A stretch of 64,000 nt of DNA from Pedobacter sp. Leaf194 (GTDB lineage Bacteria; Bacteroidota; Bacteroidia; Sphingobacteriales; Sphingobacteriaceae): positions 62,001 through 126,000 of the forward strand of contig NZ_LMPU01000011.1 of the NCBI RefSeq assembly GCF_001423945.1, in the 5' to 3' direction. The translations under genes and the position numbers were made by a program. Below, one piece after another: positions 6,118 through 64,000 of the stretch; within the stretch, counting starts at the first letter, position 1; the number at the start of each line of letters is the position of its first letter. The notes under the pieces are model-generated. The model saw only the letters and a list, made by a program, of their open reading frames with translations, had not been told where the DNA came from and made no database searches.

Positions 6118-7212
6118 TTACTTAACGGCAGCTACACTTCTTCTTCGTCGCATTCGCTTTAATTGGCCCATGTGTTCGGTGGGTATCGTATCGCCTAGGA
6201 GTTTACCCCATGGTTTTAAGCCTTCAATTCTATCAAAAATAATTTTTAGCACTGCGATAAAAGGAATGGAGAGAAACATGCCCGGCACGCCCCATAATGC
6301 AGCGCCCAAGAGTACAATTACAATAGAAATCAGCGCATTTATTTGAACTTTAGAAGAGACAATTCTTGGAACAAGTATGTTATTATCAATAAATTGAATT
6401 AAAGCATAAGATGCAATAATCAACAACTGAGTTGTGAACCCGTCCGACGTAAGCGTTGCCATTAATACGGGTAACGCAATCGCGATTATACCGCCGATGT
6501 ATGGTAACAAGTTGAGTATCGCACCAATTACACCTATTAAAATTGCATTAGGAACGCCTAAAATTAACAATGCACTAGAATTCATTACCGCCACAATACC
6601 GGTTTCTATAAGCAAACCAATAATGTAGCTCTGGATGGCTGCCTTTGTTTCTGAAAGGATCTCACCAACTTTTTTCTGATTTTCTTCAGAAAAAACTTCA
6701 TACAGAAAGTTCAATATCAAAGTTTTGTAAAGCATTATCAAAAAGGTGTAAACGGGAATCAGGAAAATTACGCTCAAAATGCCAAGCGCACCGCTAAGTG
6801 TTTGGCCAACCAATGCTTTACTGTTGTTCGCAGCTTCTTTCACCATCTGCACCTGCTTTTGCGTTGCAATACCGAAAGTTCTTTCCAGCCACGTTTGGAT
6901 AATAACCAGCAATTCAGAAAATTTTTGCTTCATTGCTTCAACGTTATCAAAGAAATGGGCAATTTGTGATGAAAGAAAGTAGGCCAGCCCGGCGATAAAC
7001 AGGAGCGCAATCAGCATCGCTAATATAATGGCTACAATTTTTGGTACGAATCGTTCAATTCTAACTGTTAAAGGGTTTAAAAGTATGGCTATCAGCGTAG
7101 CAAACGCTAAAGGTACAAGCACATCCCGCAGGGTGCTCAAAATAAAAACAGTTATTACAAGGCCAAGTAAAATTACCGGCGCCTTGATATAAAATGGATA
7201 GTTTTTGATCAT
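6118..7212 (-). CDS. AI-2E family transporter (PerM/YdiK-like permease)
   Basis: A 364-residue inner-membrane protein of the AI-2E/UPF0118 family (PF01594). It shows the family pattern of N-terminal hydrophobic helices (FYIKAPVILLGLVITVFIL, LVPLAFATLIAILLNPL), a central soluble helical region, and a C-terminal membrane block with the GVPNAILIGVIGAILNLLPYIGG and LGAALWGVPGMFLSIPF signatures. A basic tail (RMRRRRS) follows. Family members have been linked to signal, auxin or ion export; the substrate here is unknown. It starts at the first in-frame ATG. Confidence 0.9.
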   Translation of the reverse strand: MIKNYPFYIKAPVILLGLVITVFILSTLRDVLVPLAFATLIAILLNPLTVRIERFVPKIVAIILAMLIALLFIAGLAYFLSSQIAHFFDNVEAMKQKFSELLVIIQTWLERTFGIATQKQVQMVKEAANNSKALVGQTLSGALGILSVIFLIPVYTFLIMLYKTLILNFLYEVFSEENQKKVGEILSETKAAIQSYIIGLLIETGIVAVMNSSALLILGVPNAILIGVIGAILNLLPYIGGIIAIALPVLMATLTSDGFTTQLLIIASYALIQFIDNNILVPRIVSSKVQINALISIVIVLLGAALWGVPGMFLSIPFIAVLKIIFDRIEGLKPWGKLLGDTIPTEHMGQLKRMRRRRSVAAVK

Positions 7213-7635
7213 ATTTTCAGAATCGTAACACTGCTAACAAAAACAGCTTGATAATGTTCTGATTGTATGAAATAAAAGTTTACAATAAGCGTTATACAAA
7301 CATAAGTTCAACACACTCCCCACAGTTAGCACTTTTGCGCCCGGTTCATAATTAAATGAATAGAATGAACATTTTTTTAAGCAAAAAATGAACAGGGGAT
7401 TTGCCCAACCTGTTACTATTCCAATGCTTTCATTATCAGTACAATTTCCTAAAAGTTCCGAAGATTTCCGTTAGCGCTGGCTAATTTCCTTTCAAGCTTT
7501 CCTGTATAAAGTTTTACAGGTACATGTAATTAATTTGTAATACTGTTGAAATATAAATATTTTTCAAACTTTATATCAAACGGTTTTGATTTTTCTAAAG
7601 CTGAAAGTTAAAAGCGTGACTAAAATTCTAATAAA
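7213..7635. other. Intergenic region between divergent genes, no gene seen
   Basis: 423 bp of A/T-rich sequence between the AI-2E permease gene and the PAS protein gene. Apart from the possible minus-strand -7 element at 7297-7304 and a small 6-bp hairpin near 7501-7520, I see nothing. No ORF with protein-like content was found on either strand. Confidence 0.6.
7297..7304 (-). promoter_or_regulatory. Possible -7 element (TATGTTTG) for the AI-2E permease gene
   Basis: On the minus strand TATGTTTG matches TAnnTTTG, about 85 bases ahead of the start codon at 7212. No clear TTTG -33 partner is seen, so this is weak. Confidence 0.3.
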
Positions 7636-10600
7636 ATGTTAAAGGATATCTTTCGGGAATTGTTTCGCAAATCGCTAACGGCTGCAATGCTGATAGAGGT
7701 GGCAAGCGATTATTTTGGGGTGTTAGAGGTGACAGATTCCTACTTACAGTTAATGGGGTTAAACAATCCGCTAATTTCTTCTGATTCTACACCTAACACT
7801 CTTGCTCATTTAATAGCTGATGAGAAAAGCTATAATTTAATTCTAGATCAGCTAAGGGAAGCAAAACATTCCAAACAAGTTTCAAGTTTTCCCTTTTTTC
7901 ACGAAAATCAAGGCCGTGAATTTACTTGTATAGTCGAGCCTTATCATGCTACAGGGCAGGATTTCTCCTTTATCGTGGTCTCCTTTTCATTAGTTACTGT
8001 TCAAAATAGTCAGTCATTGGTAGAGAACACTGAGTTACCGGAGGATGAATTGATTAACAAGCGGTTTAATCACCTGATTCAGGATGGTTTAGACATGATT
8101 GCTATCCTTGATGATGCAGGAAACTACAAATATGTGGGCAATACATCACTTTCGGTTTTAGGCTTCGAGCCAGAATATTTCATTGGTCGAAATGCATTTG
8201 AATTTATCCACCCGGATGATGCAGAACAAGCAGTAATAGCGTTATCCAGCATCGCCGGGAAAAGCAGGGTTTTTCTACAGCCTTTTCGTTTCTTGCATCG
8301 TGATGGAAGCTGGCGATGGATAGAAACGATTTTAACTGACCTGCGTAAAGAGCCAACTGTAAATGGAATTGTTGCTAATTCAAGAGATGTTACCGATCAG
8401 ATAGATGCCCGAAATAATGTTTTGCTCACAAACGAACGACTTCGTTACGTAACAAAGGCAAGTTCTGAGGCAATATGGGACTGGGACATAGCAACGGGCT
8501 CATTATCATGGGGTGAAGGTTTTACCAAATTTGGTTACCAGGCCGATGAGATGGAAGCTACAATCCAATCCTGGTATGCCAAAATACATCCCGACGATCT
8601 GGATAGAGTATTGCAAAGCATCCACCTCGTAATAGATAATAAGGAAACAAATTGGTTTGATGAGTACCGTTTGCTAAATGCAGATGGGAGTTACTCCTTC
8701 GTAGCCGATAAGGGTTTTGTGATTTTTGACAAGAATGGTGTAGCCCTGCGCATGGTAGGTGCTATGCAAGATGTTACCAAGACTAAAAAAGAAGAACAGC
8801 ACCTGAAATTGCTCGAATCGGTGGTCTTAAATACAACGGATTCGGTTGCAATTATGGAAGTTGATCCGGAAAAATTTCCAATAAGTGAAATTGTTTATGT
8901 GAACGAAGCCTTCTGTAAAATGTCTGGCTACAGCTATGATGAAATTATCGGAAACTCGCCCAGAATGCTGGAAGGCTCCCGAACAGACCAGGAAGAGCTA
9001 AAGGGATTAATCCAGAAGTTATTGATGGGTTTACCTGGCGAGGCAACATTGATAAATTATAGAAAGAATGGAGAAGAGTTCTGGTTAAATTTATCGGTAA
9101 CACCTATAGCTGATGATAAAGGGCAATTTAATCGTTGGATATCCATTCAGCGAGATGTTACACAATTAAAAGTTGAAGCAGTAAGACAAAGCCTGCTATC
9201 CGGAATAAGTGTATTATTTAACGACCCGGCTGATTTGAAGAAAACGGCTGCTTCGGTTCTCGATGAAATTAGTAAATGTGGTAATTTTTGTACAGCGGAA
9301 CTTTGGCTGCCCGATGCTAATGAAATAAAGCTTAAACTATTTGCAAGGAGCGAGGTAGATGAAAGGATGGAACGTTTTTACGAGGAAACTGCAGATTTAA
9401 TGGTTTGTAAAAGGGGAGAGGGACTTGCAGGCCGCGTTTGGCACGAAATGAAGGCCGAAGATACATCCATATCGGGTATAAAAGTTGAAGGCAAACGGAT
9501 TCCTGCTGCAATAAATGCCGGGATAAAACATGTTTACGGCCTGCCGCTTATTTATAATGGCAAACTCGTAGGTGTTTTAGTCCTCGCTGTAAGGGCCAGC
9601 CATAAATTGGAAGGTATGGCTATACTTTCCGATAACTTTTCTGAATTTTTAGCAGGTGAGATTAAGCGGAAACTTTTAGAACAGGAACTTGGTGAGGTAT
9701 TTGAGTTCGCACCCGATATTTTAGCAACGCTCGATTATGACGGTTACTTTAAAAGGATAAATCCGGCCGCGGCAGATTTGTTGGGTTATTCGGAAGCTGA
9801 ATTGCTGAAAAAACCCGCTCAGTACTTTGTTCATCCTGCCGATAGGTTTGCCACGATAAGAATGATAAAGAAGCTTAGCAGAGGCGATAAAGCAATGAGT
9901 TTCGAGAATCGTTATCTAACAAAATCAGGTCAGGTGAAGTGGCTCTCGTGGACAGCAAATGCGGTTTCAGTCGACGGATTAATATTCGCGGTTGCAAAAG
10001 ACATCACAGAAAAAAAAATGCTTGCAGATTTGTTGCATAAAACCAACAGTCTGGCAAGGATAGGAAGCTGGGAAATAAATGTAGTTGATGGGACGGTCTT
10101 TTGGTCTGATGTAACTAAAGAAATAAGGGAAGCCGAGCTGGATTTCCAACCTGATTTAGACACAGGAATTCATTATTTTAGAGATGGTAAAGATAAAGAT
10201 ACCATAAAGGCAAAGGTACAGGCATGCATGATGCACGGAACACCCTGGGATGAAGAACTTGAAATTGAAACTTTTAAAGGCAACTTTAAATGGATTAGAA
10301 CAATAGGGCAAGCCGAAATGGTAGATGGAAAGTGTTTCAGGATTTTTGGAAGTTTCCAGGATATCGATGCAAGAAAACGTGCAGAATTGTTGAACAGTGA
10401 GATTTTGGCAGAGGTTGCAGAATCAGAGAAACGATATAGCGAGCTTTTTCATTTTAGTCCGCTGCCGATGTGGGTTTACGATTTAAATACTTTATACTTT
10501 TTAGATGTAAACCTCGCTGCCATAAGACATTATGGATACAGCAGAGAAGAATTTCTCTCAATGACAATCCGTGATATCCGGCCTGAAGCTGAAATTCCGG

Positions 10601-11016
10601 CGCTGGAGCAGGCTTTGGAACAGATAAGAAGTGGTCAATTGCTGTACAACAGAACGGTATACAGTCATCAAACCAAAGATGGCAACATTATCAAAATCGA
10701 TATTCGAAGTACACCAATGCTTTTTAAAGGAAGAGACGCAAAACTTATCGTTGCATCAGACATTACCAAAGAATTGTTGTATATAGATGCGATTGAAGAA
10801 AAGAACACCCGGTTAGAAGAAATTGCGTGGATACAGTCGCACACGGTTAGGGCACCATTAGCAAGAATTATGGCCCTTGTGGATATGCTTGGCAATGAAG
10901 CAAAGCAAAACGTAATTACAAAGGAAGACATACAAAAACACATTCAAACTTCTGCTGCAGAACTCGATAATATTATACGGGAGATTACAGCAATGTCTGA
11001 CAAAACAAATTTATAA
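7636..11016 (+). CDS. Multi-PAS/GAF sensory protein with HisKA-like end and no ATPase domain
   Basis: 1126 residues, cytoplasmic, with no membrane segment. Visible order: a degenerate PAS (about 15-115), PAS with FEFIHPDDAEQ and HRDGSWRWIET (about 145-255), PAS (265-385, KIHPDDLDRV), PAS (395-510, IVYVNEAFCKMSGY), a GAF domain (520-675, GEGLAGRVW), then three more PAS domains (690-790, 800-910, 925-1045). The C-terminus has a HisKA-like dimerisation helix with IQSHTVRAPLARI, His1069 being the likely phosphoacceptor. The protein stops 57 residues later, so the HATPase_c domain (N, G1, G2 boxes) is missing. Two receiver genes follow at once. It cannot autophosphorylate alone; phosphorylation by another kinase or a purely scaffolding role is inferred. 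Confidence 0.88.
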   Translation: MLKDIFRELFRKSLTAAMLIEVASDYFGVLEVTDSYLQLMGLNNPLISSDSTPNTLAHLIADEKSYNLILDQLREAKHSKQVSSFPFFHENQGREFTCIVEPYHATGQDFSFIVVSFSLVTVQNSQSLVENTELPEDELINKRFNHLIQDGLDMIAILDDAGNYKYVGNTSLSVLGFEPEYFIGRNAFEFIHPDDAEQAVIALSSIAGKSRVFLQPFRFLHRDGSWRWIETILTDLRKEPTVNGIVANSRDVTDQIDARNNVLLTNERLRYVTKASSEAIWDWDIATGSLSWGEGFTKFGYQADEMEATIQSWYAKIHPDDLDRVLQSIHLVIDNKETNWFDEYRLLNADGSYSFVADKGFVIFDKNGVALRMVGAMQDVTKTKKEEQHLKLLESVVLNTTDSVAIMEVDPEKFPISEIVYVNEAFCKMSGYSYDEIIGNSPRMLEGSRTDQEELKGLIQKLLMGLPGEATLINYRKNGEEFWLNLSVTPIADDKGQFNRWISIQRDVTQLKVEAVRQSLLSGISVLFNDPADLKKTAASVLDEISKCGNFCTAELWLPDANEIKLKLFARSEVDERMERFYEETADLMVCKRGEGLAGRVWHEMKAEDTSISGIKVEGKRIPAAINAGIKHVYGLPLIYNGKLVGVLVLAVRASHKLEGMAILSDNFSEFLAGEIKRKLLEQELGEVFEFAPDILATLDYDGYFKRINPAAADLLGYSEAELLKKPAQYFVHPADRFATIRMIKKLSRGDKAMSFENRYLTKSGQVKWLSWTANAVSVDGLIFAVAKDITEKKMLADLLHKTNSLARIGSWEINVVDGTVFWSDVTKEIREAELDFQPDLDTGIHYFRDGKDKDTIKAKVQACMMHGTPWDEELEIETFKGNFKWIRTIGQAEMVDGKCFRIFGSFQDIDARKRAELLNSEILAEVAESEKRYSELFHFSPLPMWVYDLNTLYFLDVNLAAIRHYGYSREEFLSMTIRDIRPEAEIPALEQALEQIRSGQLLYNRTVYSHQTKDGNIIKIDIRSTPMLFKGRDAKLIVASDITKELLYIDAIEEKNTRLEEIAWIQSHTVRAPLARIMALVDMLGNEAKQNVITKEDIQKHIQTSAAELDNIIREITAMSDKTNL

Positions 11017-11019
11017 GGA

Positions 11020-11427
11020 ATGAGTGAGAGAGAAATTTTAGTTATTGATGATGACCCGATCATATTGATGATTCATCAGGCGGTTTTAGAATCGGCCCTG
11101 CCAGATTCTACCTGCAAATATTTTGAAGACGCAGGCGATGCACTCCTCTACATGGAAGAGCAAAAAGAACAGTGTAAAAAATTTCTGCTTCTGCTGGATA
11201 TTAATATGCCAATGATAAGCGGCTGGGATTTGGTTGAAGAAGTAAGTGCCAGCGTTTTTAAGGAAAATGTTTCGGTGGTAATGGTTACTTCCTCTATAAA
11301 CGAACGTGATAAACAAAAGGCAAATACCTACGATAATATTTACGATTTTATTAGCAAACCTTTGAAGGAAGAGCACCTTGAAAAGTTGAAACAAATAAAA
11401 GAAATTACCGATTTTATTGCGCAGTAA
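11020..11427 (+). CDS. Single-domain response regulator receiver
   Basis: 135 residues forming one CheY-like receiver domain: acidic pair DDD at 10-12, phosphoacceptor D60 in LLLLDINMP, switch T90 and lysine K113 in ISKPL. There is no output domain. Only 3 bases separate it from the stop codon of the PAS/HisKA protein, so the two are translationally linked. It probably takes phosphate from, or passes it to, His1069 of that protein. Confidence 0.93.
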   Translation: MSEREILVIDDDPIILMIHQAVLESALPDSTCKYFEDAGDALLYMEEQKEQCKKFLLLLDINMPMISGWDLVEEVSASVFKENVSVVMVTSSINERDKQKANTYDNIYDFISKPLKEEHLEKLKQIKEITDFIAQ

Positions 11428-11449: not shown

Positions 11450-11845
11450 ATGAAACCATCTGAAAAAACAGCCTATAGTTGCGTAATTCTCGACGACGAC
11501 CCGTTAAGTGTTTTCCTGTTGGAAAGTTATTTAACTAATATTGATAAGCTAGCTTTGAAGGGCACTTTTACCGATCCGGTGGCTGCAATGGCGGCATTTC
11601 AAAATTTTGAGCTAATCGATTTCCTGTTTCTTGATATTGGGATGGAGGTATCTGGACTAGATTTAGCAAGGATGCTGAAAAAAAAGGCCAGGTATATTAT
11701 TTTTGTAACCGGGCATGAAGAGTACGCTGTGAAAGCCTTCGAAAATGGTGATGCATACCTGATAAAACCTGTTGATTTTGATACAGTGCTAAAAACGATT
11801 AATAACCTGATTAGTAAAAACCTGACTAGGAACCGTTTGAAATAA
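11450..11845 (+). CDS. LytTR-type receiver protein without DNA-binding domain
   Basis: 131 residues: acidic DDD at 15-17, phosphoacceptor D62 in LFLDIGM, T87 in FVTGHEEYAVKAFENGD and K106 in YLIKPVDF. The FVTGH-EYAVKAFE pattern is typical of receivers of LytR/AlgR regulators, but the LytTR domain is absent and the sequence after the stop shows no remnant of one. It is the third gene of the operon, 22 bp after the first receiver, and is followed by a hairpin terminator. Confidence 0.9.
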   Translation: MKPSEKTAYSCVILDDDPLSVFLLESYLTNIDKLALKGTFTDPVAAMAAFQNFELIDFLFLDIGMEVSGLDLARMLKKKARYIIFVTGHEEYAVKAFENGDAYLIKPVDFDTVLKTINNLISKNLTRNRLK

Positions 11846-61454: not shown

Positions 61455-64000
61455 ATGAGTCTTGAAAAGTATGTGTCCAAACGAGATTTTTCGAAAACGA
61501 AAGAGCCCAAAACCGGCAAAAGCGTCGACAAAGAAAAACTTCATTTCGTTATTCAGAAACATGATGCTTCAAGGCTTCATTACGATTTCCGGCTCGAAAT
61601 GCGGGGTGTTCTAAAAAGCTGGGCTGTTCCGAAAGGGCCATCTACAGATCCAAAAACAAAACGTCTGGCCATGATGGTCGAGGATCATCCATATGATTAT
61701 AAAGATTTTGAAGGTATTATACCTAAGGGCGAATATGGTGGTGGAACCGTAATCGTTTGGGATGAAGGAACATATGAGCCGATAGAAGAGATTGAAGGAA
61801 AAAAAGCTCAGGAAAAGCATCTAATTCATCAACTGAAAGAAGGTTCGCTGAAAATTAAGCTAAAAGGGAAGAAGCTTAAGGGCGAATTTGCCTTGGTTAA
61901 AACGCATGGCATGGGCGAGAATGGCTGGCTGCTGATAAAACATAAAGATGAATTTGCTTCGGTTAAAGATATAACTAAGGAAGACAAATCGGTTTTGTCT
62001 GGAAAGACCATTGAAACGATGGAACACACATCTGAAAAGGTTTGGAAAGAGGGGCACGAGGAAGAGATAAAGCCTGAGAAAAAATCAAAAGCTAAAACAG
62101 AAACTACCCAGGATAAACTTGAAAAAAAAATTGAAGCAGATGAACCGGACGATGATTACAATATCGAAACGGCTCTAAAGAAAATAAAGAAGTCTGCTAT
62201 TCCGGAGGGGATGAAGCCAATGCTGGCAACTTTGGTGGATGAACCTTTCGATAACCCCGAATGGCAATACGAAGTTAAATGGGATGGTTACCGTGCCCTT
62301 GCCTTTGTAAATAAAGGCAATGTTGACCTGCTGTCGCGGAACAATAAATCCTTCAACGATAAATTCTATCCCATTTATGAATTGCTCAAAACTTGGAGAA
62401 TTGACGCTGTTGTTGATGGTGAAGTTTTGGTGTTAAATGATAAAGGCGTTTCAAATTTTGGTGCTTTACAAAACTGGCGCAGCGAAGCTGATGGAGAACT
62501 TGTATTTTATGTTTTTGATTTGCTTTGGTACAACGGTAAAAATTTGATGGATTTGCCTTTAAGTGAACGACAGGCCATTTTGCAACAGGTTTTGCCAGCT
62601 GATGATGACCGCATACGAATCAGTAAGGTTTTCAAAGCAAGCGGTATCGACTTCTTTGCAGCCGCTGAAAAGATGGGTTTAGAAGGTATTATCGCGAAGA
62701 AATCAGACAGCGTTTATAGCCCGAACCGACGCTCTAAAGACTGGTTGAAAATTAAGGTTCATAAACGGCAGGAAGTAATAATAGTCGGTTTTACAAAAAA
62801 TGAAGACACTTCCAAATCATTCAGCTCGTTATTGCTTGGCGTTTATGAAAATAAAGTGCTACAATATGTTGGCAAAGTTGGAACCGGTTTTTCTGATAAA
62901 CTCCAGAAAACGATGATGGCTCAGTTTAAGCCGTTGATAATTGATAAAAGCCCGTTTGATGATATTCCAGACATAAATAAGCCATCTCGCTTTCGTCCGA
63001 ACCCGCCGAAGGCTAAAGCTACCTGGTTAAAACCTGAGCTCGTTTGTGAAGTTGCCTTTACAGAAGTGACAGACGATGGGGTATTTCGACACCCTTCATT
63101 TCAAGGGATGCGTGAAGATAAAAAGGCTAAAGATGTTGTAAGGGAGCAGGAGGTGGAAACCGAAGCAATAGTGGAAGGGGATAAGGATGAGCAGAAACAT
63201 GACAACCACGCCCAGGCAATAAAACCACCAAAAGGTAAAGAACCAAAAACCCTGCTTAACCCGAAAGATGAAACCCAGGTTAGGAAACTGAATGGGCATG
63301 AATTAAAATTTACGAATCTAAGCAAAATATACTGGCCTGAAGATAAGGTAACTAAGCGTGATATGTTTAATTATTACTATCAGGTAGCCGATTACATATT
63401 ACCGTATTTAAAAGATAGACCACAATCATTAAATCGTTTTCCCGGAGGCATACACGGACCGAGTTTTTATCAAAAGGATGTTAAAGGAAAAGCTCCGGAT
63501 TGGGCGCAGACATTTCCATATGAAAACGGGGAAGGAGAAAAGAAAGAATACCTGGTCGGTACCAATGTTGATAGTTTACTTTGGATGGCTTCACTAGGTT
63601 GCATTGAAATGAATCCGTGGTTTAGTAGGGTGCAAAGCCCGGATAACCCTGATTATTGTGTTATCGACCTTGACCCCGACAAGCAGAGTTTCGACGAGGT
63701 TGTAGAAGCGGCATTAGAAGTGAAAAAGGTGCTGGATGCGATAGATGTGCCTTGCTATCCAAAAACTTCCGGTTCTACGGGGATTCATATTTACATCCCT
63801 TTAGATGCGAAATACAGCTACGACCAAAGCCAGATGTTCGCAAAGATTATTGTTACATTGGTTAACAAGCAAATTCCTGATTACACTTCGCTTGAGCGGA
63901 TGATTTCTGCAAGGAAGGGGAAAATGTACCTTGATTTTTTACAGAACAGACCAGGAGCCACTATTGCGGGGCCGTATTCTTTAAGGCCAAAACCTGGGGC
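61455..64000 (+). CDS. ligD: DNA ligase D, PE-LIG-POL order (partial, runs off the window end)
   Basis: Open frame of 848 codons from the ATG at 61455 to the window edge. Order: 3'-phosphoesterase domain (about 30-160; HDASRLHYDFRLEM, WAVPKGPS, GEYGGGTVIVWDEG), a Lys/Glu-rich linker, ATP-dependent ligase domain (about 250-560; adenylated Lys275 in EVKWDGYRA, DGEVLVL, GLEGIIAKK, DWLKIKV) and the start of the polymerase/primase domain (about 615 on; NLSKIYWPED, LNRFPGGI, catalytic acidic VIDLDPD, SGSTGIHIYIPL). This order is the usual one in Bacteroidetes. It repairs double-strand breaks by NHEJ with Ku; no ku gene is in the window. Confidence 0.96.
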   Translation, partial: MSLEKYVSKRDFSKTKEPKTGKSVDKEKLHFVIQKHDASRLHYDFRLEMRGVLKSWAVPKGPSTDPKTKRLAMMVEDHPYDYKDFEGIIPKGEYGGGTVIVWDEGTYEPIEEIEGKKAQEKHLIHQLKEGSLKIKLKGKKLKGEFALVKTHGMGENGWLLIKHKDEFASVKDITKEDKSVLSGKTIETMEHTSEKVWKEGHEEEIKPEKKSKAKTETTQDKLEKKIEADEPDDDYNIETALKKIKKSAIPEGMKPMLATLVDEPFDNPEWQYEVKWDGYRALAFVNKGNVDLLSRNNKSFNDKFYPIYELLKTWRIDAVVDGEVLVLNDKGVSNFGALQNWRSEADGELVFYVFDLLWYNGKNLMDLPLSERQAILQQVLPADDDRIRISKVFKASGIDFFAAAEKMGLEGIIAKKSDSVYSPNRRSKDWLKIKVHKRQEVIIVGFTKNEDTSKSFSSLLLGVYENKVLQYVGKVGTGFSDKLQKTMMAQFKPLIIDKSPFDDIPDINKPSRFRPNPPKAKATWLKPELVCEVAFTEVTDDGVFRHPSFQGMREDKKAKDVVREQEVETEAIVEGDKDEQKHDNHAQAIKPPKGKEPKTLLNPKDETQVRKLNGHELKFTNLSKIYWPEDKVTKRDMFNYYYQVADYILPYLKDRPQSLNRFPGGIHGPSFYQKDVKGKAPDWAQTFPYENGEGEKKEYLVGTNVDSLLWMASLGCIEMNPWFSRVQSPDNPDYCVIDLDPDKQSFDEVVEAALEVKKVLDAIDVPCYPKTSGSTGIHIYIPLDAKYSYDQSQMFAKIIVTLVNKQIPDYTSLERMISARKGKMYLDFLQNRPGATIAGPYSLRPKPG

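Follow-up and report, generated by a model that had tools for sequence, protein, structure and literature searches.

A multi-PAS sensor protein that ends after its DHp domain in Pedobacter sp. Leaf194, a candidate sensor-gated histidine phosphotransferase

A 64,000-nucleotide stretch of the 4.57 Mb genome of Pedobacter sp. Leaf194 (positions 62,001 to 126,000 of contig NZ_LMPU01000011.1; hereafter the window) includes an open reading frame (ORF; positions 7636 to 11016, forward strand) for a sensor protein of 1126 aa, which carries PAS-like, GAF and dimerisation and histidine phosphotransfer (DHp) domains and lacks the catalytic and ATP-binding (CA) domain of a histidine kinase. As judged by comparison of sequences, this window protein is, on balance, probably a sensor-gated histidine phosphotransferase that arose when a HisKA kinase lost its entire CA domain. 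His1069 would be phosphorylated by a receiver that a kinase from another locus had charged, and would pass the phosphoryl group to the receiver encoded by the next gene (receiver 1) and perhaps to that encoded by the gene after it (receiver 2), or the step could run in reverse. Ligands of the PAS/GAF array may tune the efficiency of transfer by the DHp domain, and the input would thus enter at the transfer step of the relay, not at the kinase step. Conservation of the His, loss of the acid next to it, competent receivers, the cassette gene order found in relatives and co-occurrence with a receiver type argue for a phosphotransfer role. The papers cited below by PMC number were available as excerpts, and statements taken from them are limited to those excerpts.

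Domain layout and conservation of the C-terminus

Pfam models for PAS were matched in up to six stretches of the window protein, and a seventh, N-terminal PAS-like stretch was recognised by reading of the translation. Matches to GAF_2 (Table 1) and HisKA (residues 1068-1122, E 0.006) were below the cut-off, and the family DHp profile described below matched solved histidine kinase domains with a best E of 1.1e-8. No HATPase model was matched at E values up to 1. No row for HPt (PF01627) was obtained at E values up to 1 either, a search in which filters can lose weak matches. His1069 is followed by 57 residues, which leaves no room for a remnant CA-like domain.

Structure prediction from the single sequence was uninformative (pLDDT 37.8). 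An AlphaFold model of residues 902-1126 as a monomer, computed with a 73-sequence alignment (mean pLDDT 88.4), includes the last PAS domain and both DHp helices, at residues 1044-1086 (interrupted) and 1096-1123. Because the second helix ends at residue 1123, the gene stops only once the DHp domain is complete. The rows returned by Foldseek and VIA-align for the second model were PAS domains in most cases. Entries for LOV kinases (8a52, 4gcz) align across PAS plus DHp at 8-9 Å rmsd and therefore back the general layout, no more. Spo0B and ChpT were absent among the structure-search matches listed. The layout proposed in the initial annotation, with seven PAS-like domains, a GAF domain, a HisKA-like helix with His1069 and an end 57 residues later without an ATP-binding domain, is therefore borne out by the Pfam search, the reading of the translation and the model.

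The next gene, encoding receiver 1, begins at an ATG at position 11020, 3 bp past the stop codon. In P. rhodius (L036), the orthologue (64% identity) is followed in the same order by genes for both receivers (71% and 74%), HlyD and RND proteins, and its end is no more than one residue from that of the window protein. The gene together with receiver 1 was also found in P. aquatilis (54%) and P. mendelii (48%, over residues 142-1124), where the proteins end within 4 residues of the window protein; receiver 2 was not found beside these two copies. Two paralogues in the same genome, both on contig C9, likewise end with the DHp domain, and each is followed by a receiver gene; all three CA-less copies of the genome precede one type of single-domain receiver. 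The truncated form is thus present in other Bacteroidota, and the pair of receivers recurs, among the closest loci, in P. rhodius only.

A frameshift remnant of a CA domain, which the initial annotation had also dismissed, is ruled out, as orthologues and paralogues likewise stop after DHp. A sequencing or assembly error, or a recent pseudogene, would have been conceivable in an assembly where such breaks occur, as the frame break in a different kinase (L145) indicates, and nothing at the window locus itself speaks for it. It is ruled out because the orthologues, the paralogues and the family as a whole end after DHp and lack HATPase; a close homologue bearing HATPase at this locus was looked for and not found, the closest, that of P. 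rhodius, lacking the domain. The chance that this explanation holds is negligible. The L145 kinase (positions 1437-2326 of that locus, reverse strand, about 933.4-934.3 kb of contig C9) has its HisKA (AHDLAGPIG) and HATPase in different frames and appears to be frame-broken or misassembled.

A family without the CA domain and its receivers

In the taxonomic family, represented by 151 genomes, a DHp profile made from three sequences had matches in 107 genomes at E 1e-5, and a 60-sequence profile in 82 at E 1e-15. A pattern scan of one genome per species over 84,980 species found 120 relatives; the 80 best were retained, and all of these except one were titled with names that we take to belong to the Bacteroidota. 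The exception, an Azovibrio metagenome-assembled genome (L088), is presumably misbinned, as its H-box and ORF length equal those of L089. In scripted scans, for which the HATPase and receiver profiles were built from the sequences of this analysis, HATPase was absent from 199 of the 200 unique family ORFs scoring at least 60 bits and from all 175 at 80 bits. After 20 HATPase-bearing ORFs and one long-tailed ORF had been set aside from 198 unique DHp-profile ORFs, and one more, a kinase cut by the end of its locus, had been dropped, 176 remained (83 from the pattern scan, three from the window genome and 90 found by profile), with a median distance from His to stop of 58 residues (range 51-122). 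Across the phylum, 92 of 392 genomes were matched at E 1e-9, at which weak matches include full kinases (HATPase was present in 10 of 20 weaker examples checked), and the best E was 2e-20 or lower in 33 of the 392, as counted by eye. The CA-less family is patchy across the phylum.

Pfam inputs were obtained for 103 of 160 eligible full-length members, with 25 of 30 families displayed. These included PAS, REC (23 members), GAF and CHASE domains, as well as the MASE11 membrane domain (15 of 103) and the ethylene-receptor-like ETR1_N (11 of 103); HATPase was not among the 25 families displayed. A protein of 329 aa at L051 (positions 6412-7398) consists of a partner-type receiver and a DHp-like segment (SHELRPP) with a 121-aa tail and no profile-called HATPase, and could be either a fusion of the receiver and DHp partners or a divergent kinase.

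In a DHp tree of 108 rows and 78 columns, in which 3 of 105 inner branches were starred, the 72 truncated DHp domains form one side of a branch that has a support of 90 and is not starred. Kinases with a SHNLRAP box and HATPase are the nearest relatives of the truncated side. In an approximately unbiased (AU) test with the truncated rows and six sister kinases, the grouping was not rejected (p 0.67). The branch suggests a single origin of the truncated DHp domains.

The residues around the His were compared in the 90 profile-found relatives, all of which have His, Arg at +3 and Pro at +5, with an acid at +1 in only two and Thr/Asn at +4 in none. The window protein likewise has a non-acidic residue, Thr1070, after His1069, whereas an acid follows the His in 38 of 39 full kinases read in this genome (30 of 30, then eight of nine). 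The His is also present in all 199 HATPase-less family ORFs scoring at least 60 bits, a set found in part by a His-containing pattern; since that pattern holds QSH in part, the counts for the pattern-scan loci prove little, and the profile that found the 90 relatives likewise scores His. Autophosphorylation relies on the acid next to the His as its general base, and the phosphatase reaction makes use of a polar residue (PMC7005713). Given these roles and the counts for the 90 relatives, the residues needed for phosphotransfer would be kept, and those for HisKA autophosphorylation and dephosphorylation mostly lost. Eight full PAS kinases of Bacteroidota with HATPase (L260, L261, L263, L267, L268, L272, L273 and L279) have SH-N-(L/M)R(A/S/G)P boxes, in which Asn replaces the acid, and a single-domain receiver is encoded close downstream of each.

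An adjacent single-domain receiver was found for 53 of the 199 members (36 downstream, 27 upstream and 10 on both sides), and 43 of the 199 have a REC domain of their own. The adjacent receivers appear competent, with the Asp in 41 of 42 rows and the Lys and Thr/Ser in all 42, counting both window receivers and receiver 1 twice. By split-half scoring, 34 of the 36 downstream receivers score at least 91, as against at most 84 for the 28 upstream receivers and at most 43 for the 43 own REC domains; the remaining two downstream receivers (14 and 68 bits) are off-type and were omitted from the alignment of the type. These scores set the downstream receivers apart as a type of their own. In the window genome, the three matches to this type at E 1e-24 are the three neighbour receivers, all of which are in the profile. 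The type was present in all 82 genomes with the CA-less family and in 35 of the 69 without it (Fisher p 8e-15, phylogeny ignored).

Exclusiveness of this receiver type to the family was considered and rejected, as 17 of 76 other receivers score at least 96. Eight of these 17 adjoin sister SHNLRAP kinases, which suggests that the family kept an ancestral receiver when the CA domain was lost.

The kinase-receiver cassette and the composite window protein

A set of 27 cassette loci, mostly with REC-bearing members, was assembled; the criteria were an own REC domain, a receiver encoded upstream or a length near 330-390 aa. By manual count, a full kinase with a SHDL[QRK]EPLR box is encoded upstream on the same strand in 24 of these; in the other three, the kinase is split over two ORFs, lies on the other strand or is missing. 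A receiver of about 140-165 aa is encoded upstream of the CA-less protein in 21 of the 27 and a second receiver downstream in 11. Among members flanked by 1.5 kb of sequence on either side, a kinase is encoded upstream on the same strand for 26 of 32 with REC versus two of 69 without it, seven of these 69 having a kinase downstream or on the opposite strand; flanks had been extended mainly for REC-bearing members, and a further 11 REC-bearing members had shorter flanks, three of them with an upstream kinase. The complete cassette has the gene order of a His-Asp-His-Asp relay, by analogy with Pak-SdrG-PhyT-PhyR (PMC5898713). In the cassette at L287, HisKA and HATPase of the kinase are encoded in separate ORFs, of 1238 aa (the kinase ORF) and 136 aa.

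The window protein is composite with respect to this cassette. Its residues 913-1118 align with the cassette REC-PAS-DHp proteins (52% over 206 aa, L041), and residues 136-918 are collinear with the sensor half of the cassette kinases (Table 1). A sensor-half match of at least 400 aa was found in 16 of 24 SHDLQEP-type kinase ORFs of at least 500 aa versus none of 43 other kinase ORFs, a comparison in which locus ends truncate some of the ORFs and cassette loci supply most of the SHDLQEP kinases. In the window genome itself, the sensor half matches a paralogue nearly in full, and other kinases over short PAS stretches only. Composite proteins often combine parts of one pathway.

Receiver 2 is of the LytR/BtsR type, the receivers of which normally bear a DNA-binding domain. 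It is encoded without a LytTR output domain, and has been kept beside the P. rhodius orthologue.

Table 1. Features of the window protein and of the two receivers encoded after it (window positions).
Feature	Positions	Strand	Remarks
CA-less sensor protein (seven PAS-like, GAF, DHp)	7636..11016	+	1126 aa; orthologue L036, 64% identity
N-terminal PAS-like region, approximate	7636..8025	+	Reading of the translation; no separate Pfam row
PAS, residues ~141-255	8056..8400	+	Pfam; boundaries by motif
PAS, residues ~270-384	8443..8787	+	PAS_3 292-376
PAS, residues ~393-512	8812..9171	+	PAS_9 414-510
GAF, residues ~520-678	9193..9669	+	GAF_2 532-651, E 7e-4, below cut-off
PAS, residues ~681-794	9676..10017	+	PAS_8 688-723
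PAS, residues ~804-914	10045..10377	+	Number of Pfam stretches; boundaries by motif
Sensor half, residues 136-918	8041..10389	+	Collinear with cassette kinase sensor half; 34% over 793 aa, L280
Last PAS, residues ~933-1048	10432..10779	+	With DHp, homologous to cassette REC-PAS-DHp; model
DHp, helices within residues 1044-1086 and 1096-1123	10765..11004	+	HisKA match, family profile, model; no CA after it
His1069 codon, in IQSHTVRAPL	10840..10842	+	His in 90/90 profile-selected relatives
Receiver 1, single-domain response regulator of the type following the CA-less family	11020..11427	+	Pfam, profile
Receiver 2, LytR/BtsR-type receiver domain without output domain	11450..11845	+	Pfam; 74% in P. 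rhodius

Assessment of the phosphotransferase reading

Known phosphotransferases of the DHp type offer partial parallels. ChpT retains an atypical Bergerat-fold domain, and neither ChpT nor Spo0B is known to have a sensor array, whereas the window family has no CA-like domain and bears PAS, GAF, MASE11, ETR1_N or REC inputs. Spo0B of Bacillus is a dimeric DHp-type phosphotransferase. So is ChpT of Caulobacter, which is unable to autophosphorylate (PMC3433190). For a relay through a degenerate kinase, the precedent is Pak-SdrG-PhyT-PhyR (PMC5898713). PhyT of Sphingomonas melonis resembles the window protein in its suspected origin from a kinase and its conserved His; it takes phosphate from a single-domain receiver, gives it to the regulator that comes next and is fed by separate kinases (PMC5898713). 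The differences are that the catalytic domain of PhyT is suspected by its authors to have degenerated and that PhyT acts on PhyR, which has an output (PMC5898713), whereas the window family has no CA domain, takes PAS/GAF or REC inputs and has a receiver-only neighbour. The SHNLRAP kinases are alike as the nearest DHp relatives, eight of them with the same receiver type close downstream, and differ in retaining HATPase. The bare existence of HATPase-less HisKA proteins is known, since they were counted in SMART (PMC3591291) and P2CS has a class of 'incomplete HKs' (PMC3018481). In the titles and abstract openings covered by the literature search, which took in few of the subscription journals, no description of the CA-less family was found, and the excerpts described neither the family nor its receiver partner or the cassette.

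Several observations weigh against a sensor-gated phosphotransferase. No kinase adjoins the window locus, and none with a SHDLQEPLR box was found among those kinases of this genome whose H-box was read, the nearest being SHDLKEPL (L160). By profile, 131 of the 199 members have neither a REC of their own nor an adjacent receiver, and for 94 of these both flanks were readable. Among 28 own REC domains, only 23 retain the phospho-Asp and 20 the Lys. The partner receiver type also occurs beside other proteins and in genomes without the family, and the co-occurrence test takes no account of phylogeny. Since the sister SHNLRAP kinases lack the acid at +1 and yet have HATPase, loss of the acid alone is no proof that no CA domain acts on the His. 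Hence, of the phosphotransfer hub fed by another kinase proposed in the initial annotation, the phosphotransfer part gains support from the His, the receivers, the cassette and the co-occurrence, and the terms 'hub' and feeding kinase do not. The idea that the protein stands in for a missing HPt was also examined and is not supported, as the genome has five HPt matches, four of them above the cut-off and one a stand-alone frame of 135 aa.

A sensor-gated role in which receiver 1, bound by the DHp domain, has its phosphate buffered or removed (by transfer back to the His and hydrolysis), or is held unphosphorylated, would fit a receiver gene that begins so close to the stop and a partner type that recurs, and both transfer and sequestration have been reported for PhyT (PMC5898713). 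The Thr/Asn at +4 of HisKA phosphatases is missing from all 90 relatives, and the cassette order with the kinase upstream suggests forward flow, although reverse transfer is possible and overlaps with the phosphotransferase reading. Such a sink is unlikely. Somewhat less likely again is a split kinase, in which the CA domain of another kinase or of a separate protein phosphorylates His1069 from ATP and the sensor steers a heterodimer. In vitro, EnvZ functions with its HisKA and HATPase on separate chains, and HATPase is missing from 1556 of the 42417 HisKA proteins in SMART (PMC3591291); like CheA3/CheA4 and the HATPase-less HisKA proteins of that paper, the window protein is an acceptor domain with no CA on the same chain. 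The retention of HATPase by sister kinases with Asn at +1 and the resemblance of the window sensor half to that of the cassette kinases also point this way. Against it, the general-base acid (PMC7005713) is absent from the window protein and from 88 of the 90 profile-selected relatives, and the HE/DxxN/T motif counted in PMC3591291 is absent from the window protein. None of the 58 HATPase matches in the genome is a free-standing CA protein, as judged mostly by open-frame length, the sole short HATPase frame (144 aa) belonging to a frame-broken kinase; a full kinase could nevertheless act in trans. A docking scaffold, in which DHp serves dimerisation and receiver binding and the His is never phosphorylated, would agree with the loss of CA and the altered +1 and +4 positions, as expected of a catalytically dead domain. 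It is improbable given the His in 199/199 and 90/90 relatives, sets obtained respectively in part with a His-containing pattern and with a profile that scores His.

A broader picture can be put forward tentatively, at somewhat less than an even chance. Sensor phosphotransferases would form a large, diversified class in Bacteroidota, with a wide range of kinase-type inputs and sensing at the transfer step of the relay, and would have a single origin from a SHNLRAP-type kinase that lost CA and kept its partner receiver. The window protein would join the sensor array of a relay kinase to a transfer domain, and thereby receive the same kind of signal without the kinase core.

Genes of this kind are easily mistaken for truncated or broken kinases. 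Being compact, the cassette would allow direct tests of the transfer order and of how a sensor affects the transfer step. If the phosphotransferase reading is correct, some of the neighbouring receiver-only proteins would gain a partner, and signals could enter the relays of many Bacteroidota at a second point, independently of the kinase.

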